A DNA stretch of 28,464 nt, from IMG/VR virus record IMGVR_UViG_3300017719_000136, positions 1-28,464 of that record; one strand, written 5' to 3'. Source of the stretch: a virus. The notes below the pieces were generated by a model. The model saw only the letters and a list, made by a program, of their open reading frames with translations, did no database searches and was not told the origin of the DNA. Shown here piece by piece: positions 3,688 to 9,425 of the stretch. The position numbers and the translations under genes are program-made. Numbering within the stretch: position 1 is the stretch's first letter; each line of letters starts with the position of its first letter.

Positions 3688-3854
3688 TGTTCAAGAAATC
3701 TATCATAAAAGAGGTGCTGAAATATGCACATAAAAGAAACAAGTCTTTGAATGTTGTTCAAAGGTATTTGTCAATGTATTACAACATCCATGCAACAATG
3801 AATGTGCTGAAGAAAAGAAACACATGGATTAAAATCAAGGATAAATTATGTTAA
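3687..3854 (+). CDS. Small basic protein (55 aa) before the methyltransferase
   Basis: The frame starts at a TAATG overlap with the previous stop and ends 7 nt inside the methyltransferase gene, so it is locked between both neighbours. The product is strongly basic and helical (MFKKSIIKEVLKYAHKRNKS, later NVLKKRNTWIKIKDKLC). Such charge could suit nucleic-acid binding, but no domain is recognised. Possible functions include a partner of the methyltransferase or simple translational coupling; neither is shown. Confidence 0.6.
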   Translation: MFKKSIIKEVLKYAHKRNKSLNVVQRYLSMYYNIHATMNVLKKRNTWIKIKDKLC

Positions 3855-5065
3855 GAATAGCAACTGATTTTAGTGGTGTTGGTTCACCAGAAACAGCATT
3901 GAAAAGACTTGGTATAAAACATGAAGTTGTATTTGCTTGTGATATTGACAAGTATGCAAGAAAATCATATCAAGCATTACACAAACCACAACAGATGTTT
4001 GAAGACATCACAACAAGACCAATGGACTTTCCACAGCTTGATTTATATGTTGCTGGATTTCCTTGTCAATCGTTTTCAGTTGCAGGAAAAAGAAAAGGAT
4101 TTGATTGTCCAACAAACGGAACATTGTTTCACACCTTATCTGAATTCATCAGAATCAATCAACCAAAGTGTTTCATCTTAGAAAATGTAAAAGGATTAAT
4201 CAATCATGACAATGGAAGAACATTTCAAATCATTAAAGACAAACTTTCTGGAAATGGTGGTTCAATCAATGAACAAATGTTTCTGACTGACATTGATGGT
4301 CTTGGTTATCATATACACTTCAAAGTATTAAACACAAAAGACTTTGGATTGCCACAGAATAGAGAAAGAATATTTATTGTTGGATTCAAAGATGCAAGAC
4401 AGTTTTCTTTTCCAAACAAAATCAAACTTGATAAAAGATTGAAAGATGTTCTTCAAGATGAAGTTGTTGACAAATACTATTTATCAGATAAAATTATCAA
4501 AGGGTTTCAAAACCACAAAGAAAGACACACAGAAAAAGGAACTGGATTTCAATGGATTCCAAAAACTGAAGAAGACATTGCAAATTGTTTAAGGGCAAAT
4601 GCATCACTATGTCCAACAGATAATTCAATCATTGTACATTCAACACACACAAGAAGTTCAGACAGACCATCAGTTCAAAAGAACAAAAATGCTGGTGGCT
4701 CTGGGCATCTTTCAAAAAGTGATGGATTGACTTATTGTCTTGACACACAAAATTCACAAGCAGTTGAATGGGTTGCAGACTACAGAAATGATGAAGGACT
4801 AAGAAAAAGAAAAGATAATATTTCACCATGTTTGACTACAAGAAGACATTCAGAAAATGACATCAGTTCAATGCCCCCATTAATAAAACAAAACAGAATC
4901 AGAAGATTGACACCATTGGAATGTTTTAGACTTCAAGGATTCACAGATGAAGAACATTCACTTTGTGAAGAAGTACAATCAGATACACAGCTTTATAAAC
5001 AGATGGGCAACACAATTTCAGTTCCAGTCATTCAAGCAATACTCAAAAACATTTATCATGCTTAG
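3848..5065 (+). CDS. DNA (cytosine-5) methyltransferase
   Basis: This 405-residue enzyme transfers a methyl group from S-adenosylmethionine to carbon 5 of cytosine in DNA. All main C5-MTase motifs are present in order: motif I DFSGVGSPETA (7-17), motif IV GFPCQSFS with catalytic Cys73, motif VI LENVKG (Glu112), motif VIII QNRERIF (170-176), and motif X QMGNTISVPV near the C-terminus. The target-recognition region lies at about 215-335, so the target sequence cannot be read by eye. No restriction partner is adjacent, so it looks like an orphan phage enzyme that protects phage DNA or alters its methylation state. Bases 4119-5234 contain no CpG at all. Confidence 0.95.
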   Translation: MLRIATDFSGVGSPETALKRLGIKHEVVFACDIDKYARKSYQALHKPQQMFEDITTRPMDFPQLDLYVAGFPCQSFSVAGKRKGFDCPTNGTLFHTLSEFIRINQPKCFILENVKGLINHDNGRTFQIIKDKLSGNGGSINEQMFLTDIDGLGYHIHFKVLNTKDFGLPQNRERIFIVGFKDARQFSFPNKIKLDKRLKDVLQDEVVDKYYLSDKIIKGFQNHKERHTEKGTGFQWIPKTEEDIANCLRANASLCPTDNSIIVHSTHTRSSDRPSVQKNKNAGGSGHLSKSDGLTYCLDTQNSQAVEWVADYRNDEGLRKRKDNISPCLTTRRHSENDISSMPPLIKQNRIRRLTPLECFRLQGFTDEEHSLCEEVQSDTQLYKQMGNTISVPVIQAILKNIYHA

Positions 5066-6643: not shown

Positions 6644-6850
6644 ATGAATTGGATCGTTAAAAATAAAGCAGAACAATTGTTCAAGGACTTGTTTAAGTCC
6701 AAGAGAAACATGGCAAAAGAATTGAATTTGTCAAGACCAACAATTGATATGTATCTTGCAAATCCTGGAATGATGAATTCACAAATCAAAAAAATTGCTA
6801 AATTGAAGAAAATTTCTGAACTGAAAATATTCAAAGCAATAAACGAATAA
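6644..6850 (+). CDS. Small helix-turn-helix DNA-binding protein
   Basis: Of 68 residues, the central part (KRNMAKELNLSRPTIDMYLA) is a clear HTH of the Cro/CI or Fis-like type: a helix ending in AKELNLS, a turn, then the recognition helix RPTIDMYL. It lies between the SSB-like protein and the replisome organizer, and its stop overlaps the next ATG (TAATG). It could be an early repressor or an origin-binding helper. No integrase is present, so a lysogeny repressor role is not supported. Confidence 0.7.
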   Translation: MNWIVKNKAEQLFKDLFKSKRNMAKELNLSRPTIDMYLANPGMMNSQIKKIAKLKKISELKIFKAINE

Positions 6851-7611
6851 TGGAATATTCATTCAACATAGAATATGCACAAGAATTTGGAGTGAGTGAA
6901 GCTATCATGATAAAGAACTTTCAATTCTGGATTAAAAAGAATTCAGCAAACAAAGATTCAAATCATGATGGTAGAACTTGGACATTCAATTCTGCAATTG
7001 CATTCAAGAAGTTGTTTCCTTTCTGGAGTATTGGACAAATTAACAGAACTTTGAATTCACTTGTGAAACAAGAAGTGTTGATGGTTGGTAATTATAACAA
7101 AGCAAAATACGACAGAACAAAATGGTTTGCATTCATTGATGAAGATTCATTTGTTGAAAACGATAAATGCAGTTCTCGAAAACAGAAAATGGATTTACCG
7201 AAAACGACAAATGCAATTGTTGAAATCAATCAACCTATACCAGATAGTAAACATAAGATAGAAAACAAAGATGATAAACACATATATAAAATGTCTATCG
7301 ACATTTACCACAAATTCTGTTTGTCACAATTAGATGCACCAGCAAAGATTGATGGAGTACAAGGGAAAGCAATGAAGACCATTTTAAGCTATCTGAAGAC
7401 ACTTTGCAAACAAAAAGGTGATGATAGTCAAGAACAAGTTTTAAATGCTTTAAAATACATCTTCAACAATTGGAACAAACTTGAACCATTCCTTCAGAAG
7501 CAAATCAAATTGTCCCAAATAAATTCTAACTTGGTGAACATTATTCAAGACTTAAAAAAAGAAACAAACACAAACAACATTGCTGATGACATCCTTGCAA
7601 AATATAGATAG
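6850..7611 (+). CDS. Phage replisome organizer / replication initiation protein
   Basis: The 253-residue protein has an N-terminal winged-helix region (about 1-100: EFGVSEAIMIKNFQFWIKKN, then FPFWSIGQINRTLNSLVKQE) typical of phage replisome organizers that bind the origin, a low-complexity linker (about 100-145), and a helical C-terminal part (about 146-253) that could load host helicase, as DnaD-like and lambda O-type proteins do. The linker DNA carries three 22-bp-spaced direct repeats (separate entry), as expected of an origin embedded in its initiator gene. No phage helicase or polymerase is seen, so it must recruit the host's. Confidence 0.75.
   Translation: MEYSFNIEYAQEFGVSEAIMIKNFQFWIKKNSANKDSNHDGRTWTFNSAIAFKKLFPFWSIGQINRTLNSLVKQEVLMVGNYNKAKYDRTKWFAFIDEDSFVENDKCSSRKQKMDLPKTTNAIVEINQPIPDSKHKIENKDDKHIYKMSIDIYHKFCLSQLDAPAKIDGVQGKAMKTILSYLKTLCKQKGDDSQEQVLNALKYIFNNWNKLEPFLQKQIKLSQINSNLVNIIQDLKKETNTNNIADDILAKYR
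7156..7221. repeat. Three 22-bp-period iterons, candidate replication origin
   Basis: Three direct repeats begin at 7156, 7178 and 7200. Their first 19 bases are GAAAACGATAAATGCAGTT, GAAAACAGAAAATGGATTT and GAAAACGACAAATGCAATT; the first and third match at 17 of 19. The period is exactly 22 bp, about two helical turns. It is not a multiple of three, so the encoded protein is not repeated and the constraint must be on DNA. An A/T-rich stretch follows (about 7240-7298), suitable for unwinding. The layout recalls the lambda origin inside gene O. Origin function is inference. Confidence 0.6.
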
Positions 7612-8092
7612 AAACATTCTATCACCAGTCAATCCAAAATTTAACAGACAGATTCTGAAAATGAAGATGAATGATGTGGTTGAATTACAATTGACAAATC
7701 CTCCAGTTTCATTGTACAAATCATACAAAGAAAATGAAGAAAAATCAATTGACATTCTGATGCTTATGATGTTGAAATTTCAAGACTTCTTCAATTGCAA
7801 ATCAAAAATGAATAGGGAACAAGTTGAAGAAACTGCTTACATAATTATTGAAAGGTTTAGAGGTTTGAATTATGTTGACATTGGAATGTGTTTGAAACTA
7901 TCCAAGATGAATGAAAAGATTTATGACAGAATTGATGGTGGAATGATTTTGGAATGGCTTGACAAGTATGATTCAACAAAGACAGACTTGATTGTTCTGG
8001 AAAGACAAAAGCAAAAGACAAAGCAAGATTCAGAATGGTCAGCACTTGGAGAAAGAACTTCAATTCAAAAATTAAAAGACTTTTTAAAATGA
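7586..8092 (+). CDS. Hypothetical protein, DUF6633-like
   Basis: The 168-residue product has a core MNREQVEETAYIIIERFRGL, followed by NYVDIGMCLKLSK, YDRIDGGMILEWLDKY and a charged C-terminus. This arrangement (MNxxQ...RIDGxxIxEWLxxY) is one I associate with a family found next to replication genes in Bacteroidota phages, with no known activity. The start is uncertain: ATG 7586 overlaps the replisome organizer by 26 nt, while ATG 7661 would leave a 49-nt gap. Position suggests a role in replication or as a helicase-loader partner, which is inference. Confidence 0.7.
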   Translation: MTSLQNIDRNILSPVNPKFNRQILKMKMNDVVELQLTNPPVSLYKSYKENEEKSIDILMLMMLKFQDFFNCKSKMNREQVEETAYIIIERFRGLNYVDIGMCLKLSKMNEKIYDRIDGGMILEWLDKYDSTKTDLIVLERQKQKTKQDSEWSALGERTSIQKLKDFLK

Positions 8093-8500: not shown

Positions 8501-8895
8501 GAAAGCAGAAAGAACAACAACTTCAGAAAGCCATTGTCAGATATATGAAGTTGCAACACAAAGACATCTTCATGAATGGATCACTTGGTGGTATTTATAT
8601 TCAGAAGGCAAGACATAGAGATTTCAAAGCAAGGGGTTACAGAAGTGGATTTCCAGATTTGTTTTTCTATTCACCAAGAATCATTCATGGCAGAATCAGA
8701 CATGGACTTGCAATTGAATTGAAGGTCAAAGGAAACTATCCAACAGAAGCACAGAAAGTTGTTCTGAACAGACTTGATTCATCTGGATATGTATCAATGG
8801 TCTGCACTGGAATAGATGAAGCAATTGAAACAATAGAGTGGTATTTGAATTGTACTATTCCAGAAGTAGATGTGAACTATACAATCAAGGAATGA
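8497..8895 (+). CDS. VRR-NUC domain nuclease
   Basis: This 132-residue protein is a stand-alone VRR-NUC domain of the PD-(D/E)XK superfamily, acting on branched or flapped DNA. Visible elements are KEQQLQKAIVRYMK at the N-terminus (Glu-Gln helix), YRSGFPDLFFY with the catalytic Asp near residue 54, AIELKVKG with the catalytic E-x-K near 73-75, and YPTEAQKVVLNRL with the conserved Gln. Length fits phage single-domain VRR-NUC proteins. It likely resolves replication or recombination intermediates before packaging. Its end overlaps the next gene by 4 nt. Confidence 0.85.
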   Translation: MRKQKEQQLQKAIVRYMKLQHKDIFMNGSLGGIYIQKARHRDFKARGYRSGFPDLFFYSPRIIHGRIRHGLAIELKVKGNYPTEAQKVVLNRLDSSGYVSMVCTGIDEAIETIEWYLNCTIPEVDVNYTIKE

Positions 8896-9425
8896 AAAAT
8901 CAATGGCATCCAATTGAATGGATATACAAAGACTACAAATATTTCTTAGGCTTTGCAATAAAGAAAACCAAAGACAAGGACTTATCTGAAGACTTGGTGC
9001 AAGAAACATTCCTTCAGTTGATGACCATGAACCAACACAAGCTGCTTATCATCATAGATTCTGGAAAGATAAAGACATACATCTGCAAGATTATGATGGT
9101 GAAATACTTTTCAAACAAATCACAATTCAACAGAAAGATTGTTCAGTATAAAAAGAAGAAGATAGAAAGCAATGAATCATTCCTGGAACATCTGGTGAAT
9201 AAGAATGCAGAACTTGAAGATGATTCAAATGAACACTTGAACATCATGAACAAAAGAATTGATGATTGCTTAAACACCTTTGATGAATATGACAGAAAGT
9301 TGTTTTTATTATATTATGAAACTGGACTATCAATCAGAAGACTGTCTGAAGAAACTGGAATCACTTTCAAAAGTATTCAATACACAATTGACAAAGTAAA
9401 AAAGAACATAAAAGATTTGATATGA
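8892..9425 (+). CDS. Sigma-70-family (ECF-like) RNA polymerase sigma factor
   Basis: Start ATG 8892 makes the ATGA overlap with the nuclease stop. Of 177 residues, 17-47 contain a region 2-like helix pair (FAIKKTKDKDLSEDLVQETF) and the last 50 contain a region 4 HTH: FDEYDRKLFLLYYETGLSIR, then SEETGITFKSIQYTIDKVKK. The linker is short, as in ECF-type factors. A phage sigma would redirect host RNA polymerase, most simply to packaging and structural genes. The region 2 residues that meet the -10 element look divergent, so promoter recognition may differ from the host pattern. Confidence 0.75.
   Translation: MKNQWHPIEWIYKDYKYFLGFAIKKTKDKDLSEDLVQETFLQLMTMNQHKLLIIIDSGKIKTYICKIMMVKYFSNKSQFNRKIVQYKKKKIESNESFLEHLVNKNAELEDDSNEHLNIMNKRIDDCLNTFDEYDRKLFLLYYETGLSIRRLSEETGITFKSIQYTIDKVKKNIKDLI

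Follow-up and report, generated by a model that had tools for sequence, protein, structure and literature searches.

The window, by which we mean the whole stretch of 28,464 nucleotides analysed here, carries a replisome organizer, or replication initiator, gene at 6850–7611 on the plus strand. It is assigned by its PHROG matches and encodes 253 amino acids from an ATG start. The protein matches PHROG 11233 (replication initiation protein) with an E value of 7.3e-33 over residues 3–126, that is, over the N-domain. It also matches PHROG 6493 (DnaD-like helicase loader) at 5e-22 and PHROG 678 (O-like) at 2.5e-6. A Pfam search of the protein returned no family and detected no DnaD (DnaB_2) domain in its C-terminal part. 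The first 104 residues (6850–7161, plus strand) are predicted from an AlphaFold2 model and PDB fold matches to form a winged-helix DNA-binding domain. Modelled alone, this domain has a pLDDT of 92.8 and a pTM of 0.85. Its closest PDB folds are the N-domains of RepA_N initiators (4pql, 4pt7 and 5kbj, including a Rep–DNA complex), with TM scores of 0.65–0.67 on the query, E values of 0.01–0.07 and 8% identity. MarR and PerR regulator folds are also among the PDB matches, and the family profile found no match when searched against the sequences of solved structures. The modelling supports assignment of the N-domain to the winged-helix class, with membership in RepA_N left without support. Residues 106–140 form a disordered linker in the AlphaFold2 model, followed by a helical C-terminal domain of residues 142–253 (7273–7608, plus strand), in which the modelled helices span 142–236. 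The C-domain falls in no recognized helicase-loading family. Judging from lambda O, gp38 and RepA, we presume that it would recruit a helicase loader, helicase or primase.

The next gene (7580–8092, plus strand, 170 aa) matches PHROG 35728, whose function is not known. It is a candidate helicase loader by position, since it occupies the place of lambda P. Upstream of the replication genes is a C-5 cytosine DNA methyltransferase gene (3848–5065; PF00145, E 1e-72). Further downstream, a gene at 8838–9425 resembles an RNA polymerase sigma factor (PHROG 1740, E 3e-12) and is possibly a late-gene regulator, to judge by that similarity.

Inside the initiator gene, GAAAAC occurs at 7156, 7178 and 7200, with AAATG at an equal offset in each copy, and copies 1 and 3 are identical at 17 of 19 bases. 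An earlier note, made from the DNA letters, described three direct 22-bp repeats here. Its positions, AAATG offset and 17/19 match stand, but the array is better described as four palindromic units starting 8 bases earlier. The repeat unit is an imperfect 22-bp palindrome made of 9 bases, a 4-base A-rich center and 9 inverted bases; it is centered on AAAA, so each unit starts 8 bases before its GAAAAC. Iteron 1 (7148–7169) is CATTTGTTG-AAAA-CGATAAATG, with 7 of 9 arm positions paired. Iteron 2 (7170–7191) is CAGTTCTCG-AAAA-CAGAAAATG, with 5 of 9, and iteron 3 (7192–7213) is GATTTACCG-AAAA-CGACAAATG, with 6 of 9. Iteron 4 (7214–7235) is degenerate, reading CAATTGTTG-AAAT-CAATCAACC with 4 of 9 arm pairs; it is clearer in relatives L004–L006, where it reads GAAAACGATCAACC. 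The units abut without gaps, and the last one ends exactly at TATACCAGATA, which begins at 7236. The next two 22-mers upstream of the array show no dyad (1/9 and 3/9 arm pairs).

The array spans codons 100–129, and array and adjoining A/T tract together encode residues 100 to about 150. The array codes for the disordered linker that joins two folded regions, which bears out its earlier placement between the DNA-binding and C-terminal domains. Each of the three GAAAAC copies falls in a different codon phase (0, 1 and 2), so the encoded peptides differ and the protein is not repeated, again as first proposed. Since 22 is not a multiple of 3, a protein repeat cannot cause the array. A protein-level cause is ruled out by the 22-nt period and by the codon choices described below.

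One could suppose that the repeats arose by chance or by slippage, in a linker that tolerates them and a gene rich in A/T, and the disorder of the linker and the skewed base composition do speak for that. However, two 22-bp duplications would break the frame, and the array stands out from its surroundings. Tandem Repeats Finder, run on the 28-kb window, gives it the top score (69, period 22), with the next unrelated array at 59. A scan for three-unit arrays at periods of 15–35 ranks period 22 at 7148–7150 first, with a z of 7.6 against 5.9 for the runner-up. When synonymous codons were resampled 20,000 times under an unchanged protein sequence, the direct identity had a P of 0.00035 and the dyad identity one of 0.0011. 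The period is moreover kept in a family whose N-domains are less than 50% identical. Chance or slippage is, in our judgment, extremely improbable.

The junction element TATACCAGATA (7236–7246, plus strand) abuts the last iteron, and the dyads are in phase with it. It also begins an A/T-rich tract (7236–7300, plus strand), which is 75% A+T, of low stability, and a candidate unwinding element. Within the tract is a row of tandem repeats at 7242–7280. Of all 60-bp stretches in the window, 99.5% are more stable than the one starting at 7236, which puts the A/T-rich stretch previously noticed beside the repeats among the weakest 0.5%. The junction encodes Pro-Ile-Pro, with ATA as the Ile codon in every one of 58 genes; in the N-domains of those same genes, ATA accounts for only 170 of 441 Ile codons. 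This holds even in genes of 58–60% GC (L069 and L105). Past the junction, the tract codons are similarly constrained: Asp is GAT in 116/118, Ile is ATA in 68/76 and Thr is ACA in 91/118, all well above the rest of the genes. Read from these sequences, the codon choice at the junction and in the tract shows selection on the DNA, as the earlier note had proposed for the array.

Relatives were collected in a viral-contig scan (22 loci) and an alignment-based scan (80 viral and 80 genome loci), to which annotated phages were added. For 79 dereplicated genes, the best self-match offset was scored over 13–36 nt. The earlier note had made its case depend on the spacing being conserved in relatives, and it is: 22 bp is the best repeat offset in 59 of the 79, in every case at nt 276–403 of the gene. 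The same offset is best in 16 of 395 codon-shuffled genes (4%) and in 13 of 445 windows of flanking DNA. A score of at least 27 at offset 22 was reached by 47/79 organizer genes versus 1/445 flanking windows. When the set is thinned until N-domains are pairwise less than 60% identical, 38 genes are left and 28 of them keep offset 22; at less than 50% identity, 5 of 7 do. The records with 22-bp loci include Phycisphaerae, Spirochaetes, Desulfobacterales, Campylobacteraceae, Clostridium, Acetobacterium, Chromobacterium, Janthinobacterium and Parapedobacter, as well as phages of Bacteroides, Flavobacterium, Burkholderia and Staphylococcus. In L101 (Nitrospirae) and L183 (a Vibrio phage), the best offset is other than 22, yet dyads are visible. 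Direct repetition is weak in L012, L042, L043 and L055, where the half-sites alone are recognizable, and a clear array was not seen in L064, L090 and L158.

The phase of the array was examined separately, using TATACC as the anchor and ignoring the repeats. The DNA was cut backwards from the anchor in units of p with a shift of s, and the left and right arms of each unit were compared. Over 59 dereplicated loci, arm identity is 57% at p = 22 and s = 0 versus about 25% at other settings. In 26 strictly dereplicated loci, it is 0.575 at p = 22 and s = 0 versus 0.248 (sd 0.034) elsewhere. There is a secondary identity peak at half a period, as expected of abutting palindromes. Both the spacing and its register to the junction are thus fixed in distant relatives.

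The array might instead serve copy-number or exclusion control, through handcuffing or initiator titration, or serve as a packaging mark, with replication opening elsewhere. Iterons of plasmids serve such roles too. The lack of a GC-skew turn at the array can be counted on the same side; cumulative GC skew, a check suggested in the earlier note, has no turning point near 7.2 kb, but nearly all the genes lie on one strand and the curve supports neither side. Against these roles, a phase-locked weak tract and a conserved junction are what an opening site needs, and the window has no second comparable array. We regard control or packaging as an unlikely function for these repeats.

The array is, with high probability, the phage's replication origin, lying within the very gene that encodes its initiator; from the sequence arrangement we infer that the protein binds there, opens the DNA and starts replication. 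The mechanism we propose is by analogy with lambda O (PMC7466680), SPP1 gp38 (PMC6316719) and pSK41 RepA (PMC5703833). Each of the four 22-bp palindromic iterons would be bound at its A-tract center by the N-terminal winged-helix domain, which probably acts as a dimer. The protein–DNA complex would then strain or open the A/T tract starting exactly at the array end (TATACCAGATA), after which the C-domain would bring in the helicase machinery.

Winged-helix proteins also bind palindromic operators, and the MarR and PerR folds among the PDB matches are a reminder of this. The palindromes could accordingly be operators for the initiator gene, used by its own product or by a different regulator to repress or time transcription, rather than the place where replication starts. 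The sites, however, lie some 300 bp into the gene, in a fixed position relative to the A/T tract. A search for an operator copy upstream found one chance-level match (6725–6746), which is not conserved in the relatives. The layout seen here also occurs at established origins, those of lambda O and pSK41 repA. An operator function is therefore improbable to us, and we return to the array as an origin.

The nearest parallel in layout is the lambda origin, which lies in gene O (as in the O genes of Stx phages) and has four dyad iterons with A-rich centers followed by an A/T-rich tract (PMC7466680). The early comparison of this locus to lambda O holds up, in that the four lambda iterons occupy the matching part of gene O. 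In both systems, the initiator gene holds about four dyad iterons in the segment that separates its DNA-binding and partner-binding domains, with an A/T tract beside them. They differ in geometry. The lambda O iterons (ATCCCTCAAAACGAGGGA) are 18 bp long, with starts 20, 24 and 23 bp apart and gaps between them, whereas the units in the window are 22 bp, abut exactly and leave no gap before TATACC. An hhalign comparison of the window initiator with lambda O is not significant; the two have a PHROG 678 match in common, at E 2.5e-6 for the window protein versus 1.7e-35 for lambda O.

A second parallel is with the RepA_N initiators (pSK41 and pTZ2162) and PLE RepA, which supply the best PDB matches (E 0.01–0.07) to the N-terminal winged helix and have A-tract palindromes inside rep. 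RepA_N iterons are described as inverted repeats that meet at a poly-A tract (PMC7145576), and the Rep boxes of pSK41 lie inside rep (PMC5703833). In staphylococcal pSK41 repA, we find four A-tract palindromes of 23 bp each. Here, the period is 22 rather than 23, and the carriers are phages and prophages rather than plasmids. The RepA_N domain PF06970 has no sequence match in the window initiator at E values up to 1, and hhalign of that protein with pSK41 RepA is not significant.

The location of the proposed origin in the initiator's own gene is also shared with the replisome organizers SPP1 gp38 and staphylococcal 80alpha ORF20. In SPP1, the origin within gene 38 is oriL, with direct repeats and an A/T-rich unwinding element (PMC6316719); for 80alpha ORF20, an intragenic origin has been proposed (PMC5499656). 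Gp17 of Staphylococcus phage phiIPLA88 (L185) carries a 22-bp array, and a DnaD domain is present in that protein while undetected in the window protein. PF07261 is matched by 2 of 30 relatives in one alignment. SPP1 has a second origin, oriR, unlike the window, where no second array was seen. Taken by analogy, the best explanation is that the window system works like the lambda O and RepA_N origins, although it is not RepA_N by sequence. Our literature search turned up lambda, SPP1, 80alpha, RepA_N and PLE as precedents and no description of a family-wide 22-bp abutting array; its reach into subscription journals was limited, and a prior description is possible. We have found no earlier account of this variant, in which 22-bp units abut strictly and keep a fixed phase to an invariant TATACC junction.

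The relatives also provide a natural domain swap. In L011, the C-domain is 97% identical to that of the window protein and the N-domain 54%; in L034–L037 and L039, the corresponding figures are 83–86% and 52–56%. The iterons of all six differ from those of the window in the inner half-site bases and track the N-domain type. By their sequences, these are recombinant initiators, in which the N-domain and iterons were exchanged together and the C-domain was kept. A plasmid offers a precedent: the chimeric Rep of pPR9 swapped its N-domain and origin together for a phage-type pair and kept the pSK41 C-domain (PMC5703833). The logic is the same as in the L011 swap, pPR9 being a plasmid that we liken by its description. 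Over 59 loci, half-site similarity tracks N-domain identity weakly, mostly from close pairs (r 0.16, P 0.007), and does not track C-domain identity (P 0.23). We considered a strong specificity code linking the N-domain to the inner half-site bases and rejected it, the correlation being too weak, and we claim no residue–base rule. Even so, the collection offers many naturally matched pairs of initiator domain and site from which to work out the recognition code.

A broader reading, toward which we are tentative and lean slightly to the skeptical side, is that three to four abutting 22-bp A-tract dyads, a zero-gap TATACCAGATA, A/T repeats and a winged-helix domain constitute a general origin code. 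TATACCAGATA would then act as a specific single-strand or melting element that must keep its register to the last iteron if the DNA is to open, in a role comparable to that of the DnaA-trio beside DnaA boxes. The code would be common to phages, prophages and one mobilizable element of many bacterial phyla. To our knowledge, the origins of most phages are not known. If the general code is true, sequence alone could suffice to locate the origins of hundreds of phages to the exact base. A non-triplet DNA period kept in coding sequence across relatives with N-domains less than 50% identical would permit base-exact origin calls in uncultured phages, and TATACCAGATA, as one invariant junction sequence, is a testable candidate opening element.

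Two findings among the relatives deserve separate mention. In L054 (3297–3362), the iterons are a perfect 22-bp direct repeat, with 40 of 40 matches, which suggests that the array was homogenized recently. The Rhodobacteraceae genome contigs (L134–L177) contain near-identical 282-aa homologues in many roseobacter chromosomes, for example at L147 (2908–3849). Their linker DNA has GCCC...GGGC dyads with TATAAGAACAGATATAAACC after them. The genes that come next in L147 match NikA/MobC and a relaxase, which suggests that the same initiator-plus-origin module is carried by an integrative mobilizable element.
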